A stretch of DNA of 64,000 nt from Apostichopus japonicus (taxonomy: Eukaryota > Echinodermata > Holothuroidea > Aspidochirotida > Stichopodidae). The stretch's first letter is position 1. The number at the start of each line of letters is the position of its first letter. Shown piece after piece: positions 1-53,327 of the stretch. The translations under genes were made by a program, and so were the position numbers. Under the pieces are notes generated by a model. That model saw nothing but the letters and a program-made list of their open reading frames with translations, was not told the origin of the DNA and made no database searches. The stretch spans positions 11,989,501 to 12,053,500 of the forward strand of contig NC_092568.1 of assembly GCF_037975245.1 (NCBI RefSeq), read 5' to 3'.

Positions 1-9878
<9,878 letters not shown>

Positions 9879-30219: not shown

Positions 30220-30519
30220 GCACACTCTTAAAACACCTGGGTCATATTCATGACCCAAACGCAGGGTCGATGGTCTTATAACCCAATTTGGGTTGTACGA
30301 TACACTAAGCTGACCTAATGCTAAGTCCGAAACTGACTTTCATCAACGAGTCAAAATAATATTGGACTAAGATTGGTCAACATATGAGTGCATCATGTCA
30401 GATCAGCCAATTAACGAACACACATTGACCGTCTGATAATATTGGCCAGGCGCGCGCGCCATAGACAAATTGGCTGTAGGACAAGTTTGCTGACAGAGCG
30501 AACATGATCAGAAGCACAG

Positions 30520-33500
30520 ATGGATGCATTTGTGAAAGATATATTAGAAAAATGGGGCTTGATGGAATGGGCTAATTCATTTTAAGGTATGGTATCATGT
30601 GCAAATATCTTTTTATATGTAATTCAATTTCAAGAAATGCTGACGTAGCATACGAAGACATAACGTAAGGCTAAGTCGGTGACTGAATTCGTAGTCGTAC
30701 TAGCCTATGGCCTAACGCTAAGCCATAACATAGGCTAGGCCTGTAAACAGTAAACAGTACACTATTGCAGTGGGCTATCTGGTTAGGCTATGTAGTTTCT
30801 TTAAAATATTGAGATGATGTATACATGTACGGAACCTCAACTAGGCTCTAGTATCTGATATACAAATCCACGATCCTGATATGAATATTAGGCCCCTAAT
30901 GGTTGAAATTGTAAAATATTCAGCTAATTAACAGAAAGTTCTGTCCAAGTTGTTAAACAGACCCGTTTAGCCTAGTCGCTGCCAGTAAGCCTAGGCTACG
31001 TACAAAAAATGCAAAGTTTTTCGATAGGCCTAGGCCTAAGAAGTAAGATGTCAATATATCCTGTAGGCCTAGGCCTATTAATAACGTTAGGATCGCCCGA
31101 GGATAGACCCATGGACTTGCAGGGAGGCCAAACATTATTCCATATTTTTACATTTGCCAAACTGTATATCTAAAATAAATATGACGATGCACAACTGCAT
31201 AAGTAAGCATTGTTGACGATGCATAATCAAGCATTGTTGTGTCAAGTTTGCTAAGTAAATATGATTAGGCCCCTAGGCTAGGCCTATTTGCGATCATGAG
31301 GATGACGGCTAGATTTGGACAGGCTAATGAGGTGTTTTTTTTTGTACACACAGGGCAGCTACTGTAGTGTGAAGCATTTGCAATATGCGTAATGTACGTA
31401 GGCCTAGTACTAGTTTAGCCTCACGTTAGGCCTAGGCCCTACTGCGTATAGTGTTATAGGCCTAACGTAAGATATGGAACAAGCACCTTGAACAAAAAAA
31501 TCATCAGAGTTTTTACCAGAATTTTAGGGTTAGGCCTAAATAACAAAAATAGCTTAGTTAAATAGCTAATGTTACATCTGATTAAGCAGTAAGTGTACTA
31601 ACATACTGTAGCTTATCAGACTACCGAAGGAAAGGCAAAGAAGACCAAAAAAGAAGCAGAACTTGGAATAAATTTACAACAATTTCATTTGAAAATTTCT
31701 TGGCAATGAAAACTTTGAATTATCATACAAAATTAACATTAGGCCTAGCCTAGAATGTTAGGCCTATGCTAGGTATATTTGGTCAAGATGTAAAAAAGAA
31801 CAGCCTGTTTTGCATATATTATGGTTGAAAATAAGTAGGTCTAGCAGATCTTATATGTTCATAGCGCTTTTTGAGCACGTTGCTATACGGTAATATTGGA
31901 ACGTATTGTTAGGTAGCCTAGGTTTATATGCATTATTCGGGCCCCCGCAGTATTCGGGCCCACGCAGTATTCGGGCCCACGCAGTATTCGGGCACCTTGA
32001 GATACCCTACGATAAATACTTGTATATTAATTCTACAAATTAAGTATGTACAATTAAGCGGGGAGGGGGTGTTGTTGTAACAAGTAAGTAGCACAGGGTG
32101 CCTGTACACTGTGCACTTTTCAGCTAAATTGCTTCAACATTCATTGAAAATATTCAGATTATGATGCCAGCACCAGACAAACCTCAATCTATATAGGCCC
32201 TGGCATAATCGCCAGGGTTCGAAATACGTGGTAGCTCAGTAGGCTGTAGTGGAGTGTAGCCCTAGACAACCAAATATACGTTGGACTACCAGAACTGTCA
32301 GAACACTGAGTAGCAGTAGTCCGATGGGCTACCAAAATTTACCAACTTGAAAGCTATTATCTGTGATAAATTGTTTTCACCCACACTCACAATGTGTAAA
32401 TCTATTCAATAGCAATATTGTATATTGTATATATCATGAATCATCATTGTGTAAAATATTATAGGAAAAAAATGTTCACAGTCCAAGTCTGGGCACAAAA
32501 AAATGCTTTCTGTGCAGACTTGTCACATATTTCATCCTTTTTCAGATTAATCTGGACTTTGAAGTCATCAAGCCAAAGTGTGGGGACAAATTGTTCCTGT
32601 TATGGACACCTGCACTCGCTAGGAACCTACTGCATTATGCTGACAAGCAAAATGGTTGGTCTCGACACCTGGGGATTGTTCAAGACAGCAGTCAACTATC
32701 AGGTAACTAAGTTGCAATAACTTAACCCAGGTAAAATGCATGTGAACTGTTTTCATGTGACACTGCCAGTGATGTGTCAGTGGGCCCCCGGTTGAGCTTC
32801 ACCTCAGTCAGGGGAAATAATGAAAATGGTGTGTATTTGGAGGAGGGGGTCAGTCAGGGGATTAAGGTGGCCAGTCAGATAACAGAAAAGTGTCAAGTAT
32901 TATGCCTGATTGCCATGTGTCAGTACACAGTGCCTCGGGTCTGGCATGGGCACAACCCTGCACAGTCAACATAGATGACATCAGATTTGTTATAAGCTAC
33001 AAATGTGTTCTATTCTCGCATCAGAATTCTGGTAATATTGTCTTGCTTCATCGACGAACATTCATTGGCCTGGCATCCACCCAACTTTGGATCACAATCA
33101 GAGATGCTGTTGTGAAATTGGTGGATTTGTAGAGCCATCAGAGATCCTATCCACACTATATAATGCATATTGTTCCACTGAAAGACATTTTTTTAACTGA
33201 TATATCATCATATATTACCACAAATGTGTTAGCTTATAACATGGGCATAATCAGTGCCTCCATGGGTGTTAAGTCTGTGAATCTTTCCCCAAGGTTCTTA
33301 TTTTCCCTCTTTACAGATGATGAGGTATGCAACATTGCACTGCAGTGCATTCCATGCATTCTACCTGTTGGGTCACAGAAGGTGAAGGGCAAAGGAAAAC
33401 GGGCTACAATTGAAGATGCCCAAACTTCATTTGTGGATTTGCAAAAGGTGAGCTGAAAGCTAAATTTGAAGTAGAAAAATTCCTTTTATTAGATCATCGT

Positions 33501-34738
33501 CGGTTACAGGTTCATCTAGGAAAATTGACAGACGATACAATTATGGATGAAACAGGCAAAGAGCTTGCCTTCTCTTCTCGAGCAGTGTATTGATTGGTGA
33601 GACAAGACATTCATCAATTACAATCCCACCCTGCTCCTAGAACCACCATTTTATGTTCCCATCTGAAAGACATGAACGATGCATTCAGCCACTTTCCCAA
33701 GGGGAATGGTGGAAGGGGACTATCAAGGCATCGGTCACTAATGCTCTGCAGCTGTGCCAATCAAATGCTCGAATAACCTCACCAGCCCCAGAAATTGTGA
33801 AAACATTACCCACTAGCAAGTTCTCACACAGACCACTGCACCAGGTTGCATTGTACAAACCCCACACCAAATTTATTACAGGTAGAGTTGTAACAATGAT
33901 TTCTTCATTGCAGTATACACATGATATATGAATACATATATGTATATAAATGTGAATGCAGAATATGTTGAGTGTGCAGTGGAAGAGTGTACAATCTACT
34001 TCACACCGATCAGATAGGACATTGTGGTATTCCAGGCAGTATGGTGGGATAGTATAATTGTCTTGTTAACCTTTGAACACTGTGTTCATTCATAATCAAC
34101 TGTCCAGGGTTCCTGGATGAGCCTCAAATTAACTTACAGAGGCCCAACAATTCATAATATCTGAACTAGTAAAAAAAACCTTGTTTTCAGTACAATGCAT
34201 AAAATACCTGGCACCTCTATAACCCTCTATGAAATTGTGGCACTATTCAACACTGAAGTTGTGAAATGCTAAATATTGCACATCCTTAATCAAAACAAAG
34301 ATTGCTTCTATCAATACCCCACCTTCTGGGGAGTACTACAATATATGATCCTTTCTATATGGAAGGCAGCATTTGAATAAATCTAAGAAGTTTGCTTCCA
34401 TAACCTTTTCTTTTTCATTTCAGATTGGAACCAATATTCCACACTACCTTGAAGGGGTGAAACAAAAGCAACCATTCGTTCTAGCTATTGGAAGCAGCAG
34501 GGTTAGCCCGGAACAAACTTACATGATCATAGAGAGAGAAGCCATTCCACAGGAGTCGCTGCTTAATGCCATTGATTTATGTTTTAAGTGTTTTCATGTT
34601 TTTGATATGGATTATCAGTGGCAATCATACAACACCTGGCAGTTCCTCCAGACTGTTGTATACGACATTGATGTACCTGGGAAAATGTCATTATCAGTTG
34701 TGTCATTGAAGACATATTTGAAAATCAAAAGGAAGTAG
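30520..34738 (+). pseudogene. SAM-like multicopy protein gene inside the transposon, probably broken
   Basis: Function unknown. A first exon at 30520 encodes MDAFVKDILEKWGLMEWANSF, which fits the F-V-x3-L-x2-W-x-L start of SAM-like domains in a large fish and invertebrate protein family. It then meets TAA one base before a good donor (AAG|GTATGG). Later exons with clean borders are 33317-33447, which includes GKGKRATIEDAQTSFVDLQK, and 34424-34738 (stop TAG), which includes LLNAIDLCFKCFHVFDMDYQ and NTWQFLQTVVYDI. These two join in phase 0 and resemble the C-terminal part of the same family. A further open segment, 32546-32702, has consensus borders but I cannot place it. Exons linking the N-terminal and C-terminal parts were not found. 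The in-frame TAA suggests a decayed copy, unless the real first exon ends elsewhere. Confidence 0.5.
31935..31993. repeat. 17-bp minisatellite, about 3.5 copies
   Basis: ATTCGGGCCCACGCAGT is repeated directly with one C/A difference in the first copy. It lies inside the candidate transposon, in a TAGGCCTA-rich stretch. Confidence 0.9.
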
Positions 34739-35889
34739 GGCTGAAAATTTTCAGGCCTGGGTCCCATATATATGCTTCAACAAGAACTTTCAACAAAGTT
34801 GAAACAATAGTCGCACAGTGCAACACTAGAATTAACTTGGCAATCGATTCAACTGTCCATTACAATTCCTTTTTACATTACAGTTGAAAGAATTTGGACA
34901 CAATTTTGTTCAATGCCGAGGAACCTTTATTATCATCTGAAGTTGTGTGATTTTAGTTGAAATCTCAACTGTTAGGTGAATCACGTTTATGGGACCAAGG
35001 CATACTTGCCTCATATACAAAGCAAAGATATGCTTGTATTCTAAGAAGAATTGGCAAAACGTTTTCAGCCTGTATGATCATATTTGTTTTCATCTCATAA
35101 ATTCCAGTTCCAAAGTTGCAGCTCACAAATATTTTGCTGTCATGAAATTTTAGAAGGAAATTATATGGATTGTCCCAGTCCCAGTTATCTGCTCTAAATA
35201 AATTTCTTGGACTTTTTTTCAATTGAACGGCTCTTGGAATGCAGAAATCTGTGTATCCATTCTACACATATTTACATATACAATATTTACCTGTGCTGGG
35301 TTATGTACAACAGCAGTATAAATATTACACATAATATTTGGCCTCATTACTAATAGGCTTGCCGCCGTTTAATGAAATCCATGGATAAGTGTTAAAGGGG
35401 GGGGGGGGGGGGAGGGGATCTTTCTTTACGAGGCCTAATTTAGTGAACATTTTCAAGCCTGACCATCCATCACCCCATCTTTTAAAAGTTTGGCAACCAT
35501 GTTTTGATTGTCATTTTCTTCTTTTGTTATTACATCGTAAGTAAGGCAAATACCTCCCCATGCGAGCTAGTCTATGCTTTAGCTGATAACTATCATTATG
35601 AAGACACACACATGTCTAGCTAGAAAGTGTTCGTTCATAAAATGTTGAAATTGTTTTTTTATGTTAAAATTGCACTGGGGTCAAAAAAAATATTAAATCA
35701 TTGGTAATGCTACAAACAATTCCTTCCTTTAGATCTTGTACTGTGGTACCATGTTAATGAAACATTCAGTTTCTGTTGCAAGTTTACATTAGTTGTTAGC
35801 AGTTTTGCAGCAGTTCACTTTCTTTGAAGGAGTTATATCAATAAATTGCACTGTCAAATGAAGCCTTTTGCATTTATGTATTTTTTCCT

Positions 35890-36118
35890 ATAAGAGTCAA
35901 GCTGACCCAAATGTGGTTGATTTTCCATCATAACCCTTGCCTGGGTCAATATTTACCAATATTTCTGGGTCAAATTTTCAACCCATAAATTGGGTCACAT
36001 ATTCTGACCTAATTTTCTGGGTCAGTTTGACCCAAATGTGTTAGGTTCCCTCCTGACTTTCATTTGGGTCAAAAAGTGACCCAATTTGGGTCAATTTTAA
36101 CCCAAGTGTTTTTAGAGT
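35890..36118. repeat. Subterminal TGGGTC/GACCCA cluster of the transposon
   Basis: About a dozen TGGGTC, GACCCA or near-identical motifs occur in both orientations within 230 bp. A smaller set (CTGGGTC, GACCCA, AACCCAATTTGGGTT) lies at 30237-30296 by the other end. Arrays like this often serve as transposase binding sites in DNA transposons; that role is inferred here. Confidence 0.65.
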
Positions 36119-36122
36119 GCAC

Positions 36123-41900: not shown

Positions 41901-44900
41901 CAGCTTATTTAGTTTACTATAGGAGTTCTGTGACAAAGAAGTTTCTCTGGGGTGGTGACTTTCGAGGAGATTAATAATAATAATAATCATAGTAATATTA
42001 CTATTTATGTAAATAATAATGTTAATAATAATAAAAATAATAATAAAATAATAATAATAATTATTAATATTATTAATATTATCATTATTATTATTAGAAG
42101 TTTTTTTTACGACGCCTTAAGCAACCACAAATGTGGGAGAAACCCGTAAGGGCTTATGGATTACAACTTACACGTCGGGCGGCTGCCAATTCAACATTTT
42201 AACTCAAAGTTGGAATCTTTTCAATTTAAAAAGACATTTCAGATGGGAAACCGTAGATTGCTCTTGGATGACAAACCCACCTTACAATGACCCGGCCGGG
42301 TATCGAACCCGGAAACTCCCGATTGCTAAGTCTCATTGATTCAATTGCCACCGCTTTTATCCACTCGGCCACCTTACAAACCTTACAACATCAAATGTAT
42401 AAGACAGGAACTGAAACTGATTGGTATTATGTTATGCCCTCTTTACAATAATTGAAATGTTCCATATGAAATATAAACTATTTTTCTTCTCTATCTGGTT
42501 ACCAGGATGAATCAAAACAGGTTTTGTCATTCGTCTCAACAAACAAATATGTAAGATATTTCACTTTCCAATTAACAAGCTTTATTATTTTTATCAATTT
42601 TAATACCAAGATATTACAGTGTGACTTATTTTGATTTTGTTATGTGCTTAAATTGTCCACGCATTTATGATCAAACTCGAATGGACGCACACATGAATGC
42701 ACCCCAGGTATACACGCACCCGCTCACGCCCATAGACGCCTCAGTCGAGGCCGAGGGGAGCAAGTGGGGTAGGGGTTAATGGTTCAGTCGGGGATGTGTT
42801 GCATTCAGCCACGGAAGAATTAGACCACTGATGTTGAGGTGTACATCCGTTTTTCAACCACCACACAAAGATCAACAGCCTGTTTTAGCACAACCTTGCA
42901 TGGATGGATGGATGGATGGATGGATGGATGGATGGATGGATGGATGGATGGATGGATGGATGGATGGATGGATGGATGGATGGATGGATGGATGGATGGA
43001 TGGATGGATGGATGGATGGATGGATGGATGGATGGATGGATGGATGGATGGATGGATGGATGGATGGATGGATGGATGGATGGATGGATGGATGGATGGA
43101 TGGATGGATGGATGGATGGATGGATGGATGGATGGATGGATGGATGGATGGATGGATGGATGGATGGATGGATGGATGGATGGATGGATGGATGGATGGA
43201 TGGATGGATGGATGGATGGATGGATGGATGGATGGATGGATGGATGGATGGATGGATGGATGGATGGATGGATGGATGGATGGATGGATGGATGGATGGA
43301 TGGATGGATGGATGGATGGATGGATGGATGGATGGATGGATGGATGGATGGATGGATGGATGGATGGATGGATGGATGGATGGATGGATGGATGGATGGA
43401 TGGATGGATGGATGGATGGATGGATGGATGGATGGATGGATGGATGGATGGATGGATGGATGGATGGATGGATGGATGGATGGATGGATGGATGGATGGA
43501 TGGATGGATGGATGGATGGATGGATGGATGGATGGATGGATGGATGGATGGATGGATGGATGGATGGATGGATGGATGGATGGATGGATGGATGGATGGA
43601 TGGATGGATGGATGGATGGATGGATGGATGGATATATGGATATATGGATGGATGGATGGATATATGGATAGATCGATAGATATATGGATTGATAGATTGA
43701 TATATAACAATATCACAATGAAATTCAACTTAACTTGAAACCTTTGGGATAATACTTTGCACGACTCTATTGAATGACTCGGCCCAAGTCAGAAAACTTA
43801 CTGGTAAAGAAGACGTCTCGAAGTGACTGGTTACAAACCTATATGTGTTACAGCTATCGGCGGTAGATTTGTACGCTGCATATCATGAGGTTTTATCGGC
43901 ATATCATTTTATCCTGTTTCAGTGACAATGTATATAAACAAACGTTTACGGATTGAAGCATATTGTAGACCCTAAACTGGGTACCATATTCAATCAAGAT
44001 ATCTCAACTGATTGCTTGCACGTTTTCCTACACAAAATGAAGCTCGGTTAAGCAGTCCGCAAATGACAGAAACCTGCTTATGCATGGCAACTATTAATAT
44101 GATATTTTATTGCCATTGTATTACATACTTGTCTGAGTTTCTTTGAAGGATTAAAGATAACATTTCTTTGATCAAGTTATTTCATTTCATTTGTTTCGTT
44201 CTTTCAGGAATGGACAGACGAGTACCTTACTTGGAATCCTGATGATTATGATGGTATTGAGAAGATTACGTTAGGAAAAGATCAGATCTGGTTTCCAGAT
44301 ATAACAACTTTTGAAAGGTACGACGATGGGTGGATTGAAATTATCTTTATATTGGAAGATGAAGCCCATGTTTCTAATGAGTGATTATTTATAGGGTGTG
44401 AAGACTCGCGCACAAAGAACGTCTCATGCCGGTAATCTGACCTAGTTTCAAATGAGGTGTGACAGAAGTGTTAGACACCACCATCGATCCCAGAAAATAC
44501 ACACACAGCTTGCTACCGTCGGTAATTAGACATAAGTGTACTGTCAATACATATAGCTACGGTCAATAACCAAAAAACAGTGTACATAGCAGCGTGGACA
44601 TCTCAGGTCTAGATAAAAGATAACAAAGTATCACGTTTCATTACTGTCTGCATTTTGTAGCGACAAGAAGAAAACGTCATTTGCAAGCAACGGAAAGTTA
44701 ACTTTTTCTGAGCGCGGCACGAGGTTTTGGGGCGAGTCTTTAATGCCTTTTAGGACGACAACCTTTACAGGAAAATTGAGCTAGACCAGACTCACAGGCA
44801 AAGTTTGTTCTACTATTAAGATAGTTTAGAATAAGAGTACATAATAACATTTTCACATTTTGAATAGTTGCTTTGAAGGTAATTTTGCAGAGATGATACT

Positions 44901-47900
44901 GATATTGACCTCCTATGCAGTAAAGATATTAAATGATGATAACCTGTAAACACTTTCCAAACGTTATTTGTCAATATTTGTCCTCCTCATATGGCTGTGA
45001 TGACAATGACAGAGTTGGAAACGGACCAGCTGAAGCTAACATGGAAGACACTTTTGTAACCGCAGACTACCGAGGCAACTTGGTCTATTACAATCTCGTG
45101 TTCCTGTCGGTGTTTTGCAAGATGGACGTCCGTCTCTTCCCGTACGATACTCACTCATGCCCTGCTCGATTTTTGTCTTTCGCCTACGAAGGGGATGCCG
45201 TAAGTTTTGTTACATGCTTCAACTGTAGTTATTTCAATAAGAAAAACACCCGAAGGTATATCGAAACCTTGGTAACGGATTTTAACGCAGTTTCTGAGTT
45301 GACTTGGATAGTTTTTTTCTTTCTCGACGACACTTTTCTATACTTAAAACCATATATAATAATGTAGTTTATTATCTTGAGCAATACACTTTCATATATA
45401 TAGGATAATGAAATAGAGGTCAATATTTTCAATTTCCTCTTCGAAGGACTTGTACCTTTCTATCATATAGCGCCGGATCGAAGTCCCCTTCTGATAATGT
45501 ATGTAAGTATTTTAGATCCTCCTGCTAGCAGGAACTCGCAAAGAAGCCTCATTGGCTTATCAAAGCCGCCAGTTGACCGAAGTCAGTCTCTTACATTTAT
45601 ATTTAACGTCCATGATTATGAATTGTCAATTGTCAATAACTCTGTAACTGGACGACATACATTAATCTTGGAGTGACTCTAACCAGGGACCTTATGATTG
45701 GAAGGCACCGGCGTTAACCACTGAGCTAACACTCCACAGAGTGAAGAGTTCCTACTATATAATGAAGAGTTCCTATATACGTGCCTGAAAAGGCATTCTT
45801 CACTGACTATAGTTCAGTGTACTGAAACAGTATGCCAGCTATAATATAATGTCATACCGTTATGAGTTTATGAAATCATGCATGCCAATTTACAATATAC
45901 TGTTACACCGGCGCGAAGCGTTTAATTGATTGTGTTTTGTACAGGCTACGTTATACCGGTATACCGCCAAAAGTCATACCGTCTGTATATATCGTCATGT
46001 TACAGGTTGCAGTTTTCAATACCAATGACTCCGATAGTAGCGAAACAGCCCTAAAGAACAACGGTGTTTGGGCGGTTGCCCATTATCATTTTGAAGAAGT
46101 TGAAATCAAATATCCGTGTTGTCCACTACCGTACAGAGAAGTGCACTTTACCATGGACATACGGAGGGAGAGTGGATTTTACGTTCTTAATGTCGGTATA
46201 CCAACGTTACTGTTATCACTAACTACTCTGTCGGTTTTCTTACTTCATCCCGAGTGTGGTGAGAAGATATCTCTATGCGTCAACAATGTCTTAGCTTGGA
46301 TCATTTTTCAACAACTGTTGACAATGAACATGCCACCTACTGGAGACCAAACTCCTATTGTGGGTAAGTGTCCAGTCTTGCTTTCAATGACGCCTCTACT
46401 TATAAAGTGGTGTTACAATTTGTTTCTAAATATAAAGACAGCAGGTGAGGCAAATCCAAATGGTGGAGGGGAGCCGGGAGAGAGGACCGGAGAAATACTC
46501 CCAACAAGTTTTGTTCGAAAACCTCAAAAGTGCCCTTTTCTATAGTGCCTCTGGTAAGTCTTGCTTAATGAAAAAGAAACACTTCGTTATTTGCAAGATA
46601 TCTTCACTTGTTTTGAGAAATGAAATAATCTGTTCTTAGAAAATGCAATTTTGTTGGAAATTAAACAAAATAGTAACTGAAATGTATCGTTTCTTGAAGC
46701 ACATTTGAGGTGATTTTGTGGTTTGCCCGTGACCTGTCCCAATCCCCGCCTCCCCACACCAGTCACCCCCAAGATTGTACCACTGGCTGGTTCTGTCAGC
46801 CAGATTAGATCCAGTTTGGTGTTAATGGTAGTACGATTTTTGGTGTTTCTATTTTTCAGCTTATTACTTTGCAGTGGTCATCACTATCAGTTTTCTCTCG
46901 GTTCTCACGACGTGCGTCACTCTTAGTATTTACCACACCAAAACCAACCGTCCCCTACCAGGACTACTTAGGCAGGTTTTGCTCATCGGAGGACGAAATT
47001 CCAGTCACAGAAGTTTAAAGCCTACTAAGTTAGAAGTTTCTATGTAGGTCAAAGTTCAATAATTGATTTTATCCAAACTACCCACTTTGGTTTGAATGCC
47101 ACATAATATTATGCTATTTTGAATCATATGTGTACATGTAACTATTAAACTTCAATGCACTATCCAAACAGAAAGGTCACGTGCACAGTTCACCGTAGGC
47201 TACACACAGTCGGTTTGTGTTTATTAACAGGTTCGTCCAGAGGAAAAATTTACGCTAAACAGACGGAAGAGAAATATATTCTAGGCATCCTAGTGAAACT
47301 TGCAATCGATTTCTACTTACCATTTTCGAGATTACAACATTTGAATTTGACACGTTTTTTCGCAATAAAAGTTCATTTATGGTACAAACTGTAACTGTGA
47401 CAATTTTAAATCTCAATATCTCGAGGACGCGCCATACATACAGGAGGAATTGGATGTAAACTTCCCTATACGGGCATGCTTAGAAAATGTTCCTCTTTCA
47501 GCTGTCAAAAAGCAAAAAACAAAATATGTCCCCTGGACTATCGTTTGAAATCGGCGAATGGGTGTGCTCTAAGATGGGTCCTTGTTTACTTAAAGTTTCC
47601 ATGTATGCCATTTAGAAACTTTGATCACAAACTAATCGCTTCAACTCCACTTGATAATTTGTGTTGTTCTCCGTTAAATAACACTGTGACTCTCAGTGAC
47701 GTCGAGAGACAGTCCGATTCCCCAATATGTGAGGTATTTAGTTTTCCTTAAGTATATAATATGAACATGGGCATATATTATCCTTTATCCCTTATATCCC
47801 GGGCTCCTTAATTTACCACAGTATTCTAAGTTGAAGCCCCCCCCCCCCCCTCCCCGTCACCTCCCTCTCGTCAGGCTTGGTGACTTTATTTAGTTCATTT

Positions 47901-52077: not shown

Positions 52078-53327
52078 CTCACAAGACACTAAATCCAGTG
52101 GTGAGCTTCACGTCTTCTCTGTCTGTGAGAGGATGGGACTTTCTAACGTTCCCTACATCCCTCCAGGTGATCTAGAAGAGGTTGAGGATGAGTGGGGTAT
52201 GCCCATCATTCTAGGGGGAGGTGGTAATGGGGCTGTACAACTGATGAGAATCAAACCAACTCAAGTACTTTGTGCAGTCAAGACACAGTACAAACATCTC
52301 AATGAAGAAACTGCCGGTCAGGTAAATAAACCATATAACTCATTTACATTATAATTAAATTTGTAGTTATGATTTACGTAAACTGACATTAAAACAGCTG
52401 TTTCTTTTATTTCACCATATGTTACTTTAATAACATATTTTGTTTGCTAGTTCATTACTTTCCAGAATTTTAGTTAAACCCCTGTTATGATTGCAGCAAG
52501 AATTTTGATAGAAATTTGTTGTTCGATTTGTTTAGTTTATGCCTCGGAAAGCAGTTTGTGGCTTTCATATTTGCATGGTATTATTTTCCTCTCTTTTTCA
52601 GAACTTTGCACGAGAAGTCAGAGTTTTGAAAGCATTAGAAGGCTTGGAGTGCATTCCAACATTTTTCGGCGTCACTTTGCCCCCAGATGATGGACCTTTT
52701 CCCGCCATAGTTCAAGAGTTCGTCACAAACGGTCAATCGTACACTGCAACGTCACTCTATGATGCCACAGACAAGCGTCTTATCACGAAAGATAATTCTT
52801 TACAGGTGGCGATGGATATCTGTTTGGCTCTAAGGGACATGCACGCCAGGTATTGGTTGCATTGTGACATCAAATCGGACAACATTCTGTTGCAGCCATC
52901 GAGTGTCGCAGACGACACTGAGGACCTCTGGGATGACGTCGACAGCGTTGCATCATGGGAACCAACTCAGGACATATATCCTACCGAGTCAAATCCAAAC
53001 TTCAAAATTAAATTGATTGATTTTGGTTTGACATTAAACATGAATGATCAAGAACAATATTTACAATTCACCGACGAAAGACAAACCGAGATGATGAAGA
53101 ATTCCATTCATGTTGCACCGGAAGTAATTACAGGTCAAAGGCCATTCAGCAAAGCTTCTGATGTATTTTCCATCGGCCGCGTCCTGAAAGACCTCAGTGT
53201 CGTCGGAGACGACTATCTGTTACGTCTTGGAGAACAATGTATGAAACCTAATCCAGATGAAAGACCAAAACTTGATGACGTCATAGACATCATAAATGTC
53301 AGGATACAGAGTGTGAAGATTCCTTAA
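52078..53327 (+). CDS. Protein kinase-like protein, two or more exons
   Basis: Exons 52078-52321 and 52602-53327 (TAA) join in frame. Taking the Met at 52133 gives 304 residues, but the frame stays open back to an acceptor-like CTCAG at 52077, so an upstream exon may exist. Seen: Gly-rich loop GGGGNG (28-33), CAVK with Lys50, helix C Glu68 (NFAREV), catalytic HCDIKSDN (150-157), DFG (203-205) and VAPEV. The residues needed for phosphotransfer are present, so it is probably active. HCD in place of HRD makes it a non-RD kinase. An acidic insert of about 35 residues (DDTEDLWDDVDSVASWE inside it) sits between the catalytic loop and DFG. I cannot assign a family. The C-terminal helix ends at the stop, so it is a bare kinase domain. 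Confidence 0.82.

Follow-up and report, generated by a model that had tools for sequence, protein, structure and literature searches.

The window analysed here is a stretch of 64,000 nucleotides from the sea cucumber Apostichopus japonicus (NCBI RefSeq assembly GCF_037975245.1, contig NC_092568.1, positions 11,989,501–12,053,500 of the forward strand). It contains a 5897 bp copy of a DNA transposon that is bounded by inverted repeats and carries part of a gene for a protein with a SAM domain, as a preliminary description of the locus had proposed; the last exon of the gene is enclosed by 20 of the family's 21 end pairs in the genome. Compared with the 13.5 kb element described below, the window copy lacks 8.0 kb, comprising SAM exons 2–7 and the whole transposase open reading frame (ORF), and retains exon 1, exons 8–10, both ends and both subterminal arrays. 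It is a non-autonomous deletion derivative, with the following features in window coordinates:

30221–30222, left target-site duplication, CA (comparison of the flanks of 21 copies)
30223–30242, plus strand, left terminal inverted repeat, CACTCTTAAAACACCTGGGT (pattern search of the window and the genome)
30238–30293, left subterminal TGGGTC/GACCCA cluster, with four TGGGT/ACCCA motifs within 100 bp of the left end, including one inside the inverted repeat
30520–30586, plus strand, SAM gene exon 1, encoding the first half of the domain and carrying an in-frame TAA directly before the GT donor
32471–32473, junction of the 8.0 kb internal deletion, which removed SAM exons 2–7 and the transposase ORF
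32546–32702, plus strand, SAM gene exon 8 (INLDFEV...QLS), with AG/GT borders
33317–33447, plus strand, SAM gene exon 9 (DDEVCNIAL...DLQK), with AG/GT borders
34424–34738, plus strand, SAM gene exon 10, the last exon, including the stop codon
35904–36099, right subterminal TGGGTC/GACCCA array, with 11 TGGGT/ACCCA motifs over the final 260 bp when the inverted repeat is counted
36100–36119, minus strand, right terminal inverted repeat, reading CACTCTAAAAACACTTGGGT on that strand
36120–36121, right target-site duplication, CA (comparison of the flanks of 21 copies)

A 19-base end pattern was used to scan the window and the genome (671.6 Mb in 35 contigs). With up to three mismatches allowed, the two ends are the sole matches in the window, where shuffled sequences average 0.06 matches and one of 100 shuffles gave two. 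The exact pattern occurs 48 times in the genome (24 + 24), compared with 0 + 0 for the reversed control, and these counts together with the shuffles rule out a chance origin of the ends. Pairs in the correct orientation account for 42 of the 48 ends and number 21, of which 12 are 5.5–5.9 kb long, as expected from the proposed pairing at about 6 kb. The six unpaired ends comprise one from a 5.8 kb copy that is nearly full-length and has a damaged end (L037), four from copies that are interrupted or rearranged (L036, L038 and two on C18) and one (L035) with no other element match nearby among the matches listed. On C18 (3415150–3428511), two right ends in the same orientation lie 13.3 kb apart with only element pieces in between, which is perhaps a rearranged or nested copy. 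The inverted repeat reads CACTCT...AGAGTG. A C precedes ACTCT and a G follows AGAGT in all 21 pairs and the repeat is therefore taken to start at this C, so that the inverted ends first noted as agreeing in 18 of 21 bases are real and are better described as a 20 bp repeat with 18 of 20 bases identical between the window ends. The clusters of TGGGTC/GACCCA reported just inside the ends were likewise confirmed: the motif TGGGT/ACCCA is found four times in the left 100 bp and 11 times in the right 260 bp (inverted repeats counted), against a density of 1.6 per kb elsewhere in the copy. The arrays are asymmetric, with four motifs on the left and 10–11 on the right.

A 2 bp target-site duplication fits 20 of the 21 copies (17 TA, two CA including the window copy, and one TG), and a 3 bp register fits none. 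The bases GCAC on both sides of the window copy had been put forward as its flanking repeat; a 4 bp register fits this single copy of the 21 and was rejected, and GCAC is the CA duplication plus neighbouring bases that agree by coincidence. As TA is so common, control pairs that combine the 2 bp flanks of two different copies also agree, in 292 of 420 cases, and the weight of the evidence for duplication thus falls on the three matching non-TA copies and on empty sites. The latter were sought by joining the flanks of 20 copies (the 0.2 kb copy was excluded) with one copy of the 2 bp, and 40 of 3974 candidates were scored. All 40 of these matches cross a junction. They provide paralogous empty sites for four of the 20 copies, with 96–100% identity over the junction and a single 2 bp copy: a C7 copy (seven places, 99–100% identity), one C21 copy (five places, 100%), the C14 copy at 377 kb (19 places, 98–99%) and the 12.1 kb C8 copy (nine places, 96–98%), whereas the other 16 have none among the matches listed. 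Insertion boundaries and the 2 bp duplication are thereby established for these four copies.

The 21 pairs form a size series, with one copy of 0.2 kb, 12 of 5.5–5.9 kb, one of 6.2 kb, one of 7.1 kb and two each of 9.5, 12.1 and 13.5 kb. The two 13.5 kb copies are 99.39% identical to each other and the two 12.1 kb copies 99.78%. The 12 short copies, including that in the window, share the 8.0 kb deletion and are collinear over its junction, with one additional gap in one of them; their mutual identity of 91.6–99.9% indicates that one deleted founder multiplied over time. The deletions in the 12.1, 9.5, 7.1, 6.2 and 0.2 kb copies differ in their breakpoints, at which no more than 3 bp of sequence is shared or 1 bp of filler is present. 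The 12.1 kb copies lack SAM exons 6 and 7, so that both genes are whole only in the two 13.5 kb copies. The ratio of nonsynonymous to synonymous substitution (dN/dS) of the 12 short copies relative to the C21 copy is 0.26–0.37, with one to three stops each; it was not used as evidence because the figure blends a selected lineage with a broken one.

The 13.5 and 12.1 kb copies contain an 840-codon transposase frame (ORF1; 836 codons from the first Met), which is open in three of the four (C8, C20 and C21) and split into 615 + 241 codons in C9, a 12.1 kb copy. A genome search with ORF1, in which 54 of 408 candidates were scored, gave at least 56 listed matches with 28–100% identity, 41 of these 56 having an open frame of at least 800 codons; after joining of pieces, 52 transposase places remain among the matches listed. 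In all 12 divergent transposases aligned, Asp309, Asp403, Cys423, Cys426, His631, His635 and Glu655 are invariant, and the spacing between the two cysteines is two residues in 11 and one in L055. The 840-codon frame thus bears the pattern D, D, C(2)C, H(3)H, E, which is described as the signature of EnSpm, Mirage, Chapaev and their kin (PMC12730594). Against Pfam Transposase_21, five of the 12 transposases reach E ≤ 0.1, the best of them 1.9e-5. The N-terminus of ORF1 contains Cys/His pairs spaced as in two zinc fingers, and the corresponding part of the transposase profile matches chains of C2H2 zinc fingers among PDB sequences (best E 6.4e-5); the same comparison yielded no transposase, only zinc fingers and weak scattered rows. 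In the 13.5 kb copies (C21:14169150–14182657, minus strand), frame-broken pieces that resemble by eye the remnant of a piggyBac-type transposase lie at about 6465–6730 of the element, between the transposase and the SAM gene; one of five such pieces matches Pfam DDE_Tnp_1_7 below the cutoff (E 0.077) and the other four match nothing.

The SAM gene (ORF2) of the 13.5 kb copies is predicted to have ten exons. The gene model is based on open frames, GT/AG borders at most exon ends and conservation, and the splicing is a prediction. Exon 1 begins about 300 bp from the left end, the predicted donor of exon 2 lies about 50 bp 5' of the transposase ATG and exons 3–10 follow the transposase, so that ORF1 lies within intron 2 and is read in the same direction as the SAM gene. 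Exons 1 and 2 encode the SAM domain; when spliced as predicted from the C21 13.5 kb copy they score 26.4 bits against Pfam SAM_1 (cutoff 23). In the window copy the last full codon of exon 1 before the splice site is a stop, and at the place of this in-frame TAA the 13.5 kb C21 copy reads MDSFVKDKLEEWGLMEWANSFQ. The plus-strand exons of a SAM-like protein that were originally suggested for the window are present as exons 8–10, with only half of the SAM domain itself (exon 1, with its stop). Among PDB sequences, ORF2 has two weak matches, both to SAM entries (E 0.17 and 0.37). When the window's last SAM exon was folded by itself, the predicted structure had a mean predicted local distance difference test score (pLDDT) of 36.5.

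The SAM family is highly multicopy in this genome, with last exons at no fewer than about 223 places, which agrees with the preliminary description's view of a very multicopy family. These were found with the last exons of three families as queries, for which 99 of 836, 150 of 658 and 150 of 590 candidates were scored; the third query (L060) was itself picked from a transposase-linked place. Six matches with 36–38% identity are spaced about 40–100 kb apart on one strand at C9:12289585–12568576 (minus), and may form a tandem array or a cluster of genes adopted by the host. Multicopy SAMD3-like proteins of fish are candidate kin of this gene. Among the matches listed, 20 last-exon places lie in pairs of the window family, 19 lie in pairs of a sister family, and 26 transposase places have one beside them. 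Occurrence at many places away from the exact ends, which the preliminary description had thought would tell against its proposal, is thus a fact, and we read it as the presence of many related transposon families and not as a refutation.

The sister family was drawn from the one-mismatch part of 100 listed places of the end pattern, which with up to three mismatches has 307 + 330 matches in the genome versus 104 + 102 for the reversed control. Its ends read CACTGTAAAAACAC(C/T)TGGGT, beginning with CACTG, and form at least 22 pairs, mostly of about 3.7 kb; the last SAM exon lies within 19 of the 22 pairs listed. The copies of about 3.7 kb (e.g. C9:33868531–33872198) keep this exon, often without stops. 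Two non-autonomous classes retain 3' SAM exons. Short copies that keep SAM exons and no transposase might suggest that the SAM protein is the transposase and the 840-codon ORF a passenger. We regard this as highly improbable and have rejected it, since the invariant DDE residues, together with the C-C and H(3)H pattern, are borne by the 840-codon frame, and ORF2 matches neither a nuclease nor a transposase in Pfam or among PDB sequences. The suggestion made at the outset that the SAM family may be the mobility protein does not hold in the sense of a transposase, as a DDE protein distinct from it is encoded by the fuller copies.

The two genes are associated well beyond the window family. Among the matches listed, a last SAM exon lies downstream of 26 of the 52 transposase places, at a distance of up to 20 kb and on the same strand, and none lies upstream or on the opposite strand (0 of 52 each). 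An even scatter of the SAM places would give an expected 0.17 such linkages, with copies of one family counted singly; the 26 places include copies of the same family (four of the window family and six of the next) and are not independent. Linkage persists among transposases down to 32% identity and spans two fully supported clades, one of families 1–3 and the other of families 4, 8 and 9. By eye, two of six further families (L063 and L064) also have a frame resembling SAM exon 2 just 5' of the transposase. In an alternative that we consider unlikely, the element is an otherwise ordinary EnSpm-like transposon whose SAM gene represents cargo captured from the host, or a regulator or anti-silencing factor, with no part in the transposition reaction. 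Such a role would agree with the transposase places that have no nearby SAM exon among the matches listed (26 of 52), at which the transposase may manage alone, and with the multiplication of non-autonomous copies whose SAM gene is broken. However, the pairing recurs in one order and on one strand across divergent transposases in both clades, which makes it too persistent for a recent capture, the nesting around ORF1 speaks for joint expression, and the spread of broken copies is expected where both proteins act in trans.

The arrangement resembles that of maize En/Spm, in which the tnpD transposase ORF lies in the intron 1 region of tnpA, TNPA recognizes the repeats of the subterminal regions, neither protein can be dispensed with and copies with deletions can be mobilized in trans (PMC2613891). 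Shared with that description are CAC...GTG ends, subterminal repeats, internal deletion derivatives and a second, multi-exon gene with the DDE ORF, in the same orientation, inside an early intron. On the strength of this layout, namely the ends, the asymmetric arrays, the nested genes and the deletion series, we consider it probable that the SAM protein is a TnpA-like accessory of an animal EnSpm/CACTA-like transposon of the CMC clade, of which the window holds a non-autonomous 5.9 kb copy. The transposon would move by cut and paste, duplicating 2 bp of target with a preference for TA. The zinc-finger-like DDE transposase would cut and join the CAC...GTG ends, and the SAM protein, which would be needed for transposition, would bind the asymmetric TGGGTC/GACCCA arrays and gather the ends, perhaps via SAM–SAM contacts. 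Since ORF1 is nested in intron 2 of ORF2 on the same strand, a single promoter with alternative splicing could yield both products. Deletion derivatives such as the window copy, in retaining ends and arrays, could be mobilized in trans. The second protein differs from that of maize in bearing a SAM domain, and the transposase differs in its zinc-finger-like N-terminus.

A number of observations weigh against this interpretation. Half of the transposase places (the other 26 of 52) show no SAM exon within 20 kb among the matches listed, and the same holds for a SAM partner of families f5, f6/f7 and f10–f12; families without a detected partner may lack one or have a more divergent one. In L062, L065, L066 and L067 the roughly 300 bp upstream of ORF1 showed no SAM exon. 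In the gene model, the donor of exon 3 and the acceptors of exons 4 and 7 are not fixed, and ORF2 matches nothing known in Pfam besides the SAM domain. The window family's own transposase scores 14.5–15 bits against Transposase_21, for which the cutoff is 28.6. The 0.2 kb copy has unequal 2 bp flanks (TA/TG). Unlike maize En/Spm, the element makes a 2 bp, TA-preferring duplication and not one of 3 bp, and its ends begin with CACTC (window family) or CACTG (sister family) and not CACTA; both the CACTA termini and the 3 bp duplication of EnSpm/CACTA proper are therefore absent, whereas subterminal arrays and, in the predicted model, a second gene spanning the transposase ORF are present.

Mirage, of the CMC clade, has TA duplications and CAC ends. 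By description the present element shares these traits, with 17 of 21 copies flanked by TA (the others being the two CA, one TG and one unequal case given above), as well as the clade; Mirage is not known to carry a SAM protein. The element could accordingly belong to a Mirage or ESTA-like TA-specific lineage and not to EnSpm proper, an assignment that we find possible and yet somewhat doubtful. It draws on the 2 bp TA duplications themselves and on a study that defines ESTA as EnSpm-like with TA duplications and gives the CMCT clade mostly CA..TG ends and duplications of 2–5 bp (PMC12730594). The element resembles ESTA in its CMCT signature motifs and TA duplications, and differs by description in that ESTA is fungal and occurs in families with TET/JBP dioxygenase genes (PMC12730594). 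Against this assignment, the best Pfam relation is to Transposase_21 (tnp2) of the CACTA family, and the fungal ESTA transposases are described as having been recognized through structure-based comparison with RAG1.

For the EnSpm/CACTA-like reading in the wider sense of the CMC clade, the sequence motifs point to membership; the termini are of the CA..TG type (CACTCT...AGAGTG) and the duplication of 2 bp falls within 2–5 bp. The element is also like SmTRC1 and the animal TRC elements, which are CACTA-like, encode a Transposase_21 protein with alternatively spliced products and have a 2 bp duplication in seven of 14 copies; it is unlike them, again by description, in that TRC ends begin with CCC and no SAM protein is described in that account (PMC1636069). 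Related transposases are recorded there from sea urchin, Ciona, zebrafish and Aedes (PMC1636069). With Chapaev and Chapaev3 it shares CAC...GTG ends and CMC membership, whereas those elements have duplications of 3–4 bp (TWA in Chapaev3) (PMC4079192). CMC-clade transposons, including animal ones with 2 bp duplications, are well known, and the initial view of a poorly described transposon group gives way to known kin through the CMC/EnSpm signature. No report joining a SAM-domain or SAMD3 protein to EnSpm/CACTA was found among open-access titles and the beginnings of abstracts; Repbase and most subscription journals were outside this search, and no priority is claimed as Repbase may already have such elements.

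Elsewhere in the window, an ATGG tandem repeat of about 200 units (42900–43701, 802 bp) is open in several frames. Open frames resemble by eye an exon of a ligand-gated ion channel (45874–46545) and a protein kinase domain (52536–53327). A 461-residue open frame at 5798–7183 resembles a pecanex-like protein.

The findings link a multicopy family of SAM-domain proteins, so far without an assigned function, to a mobility system, so that the family's function becomes testable, and the nested two-gene layout of plant En/Spm is found in an animal genome with a different second protein. SAM domains can polymerize (PMC7644731), a property that would fit a role in bringing the ends together. We suggest tentatively, at a little short of even chances, that the multicopy animal SAM family is the standing partner of a TA-target EnSpm-like group, in which SAM polymerization on the subterminal repeats assembles the transposition complex. 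If true, this would be a solution to end pairing like that of plant TnpA, achieved by an unrelated protein. Gene counts and expression studies in which SAM genes of this kind are assigned to the host may include transposon proteins.

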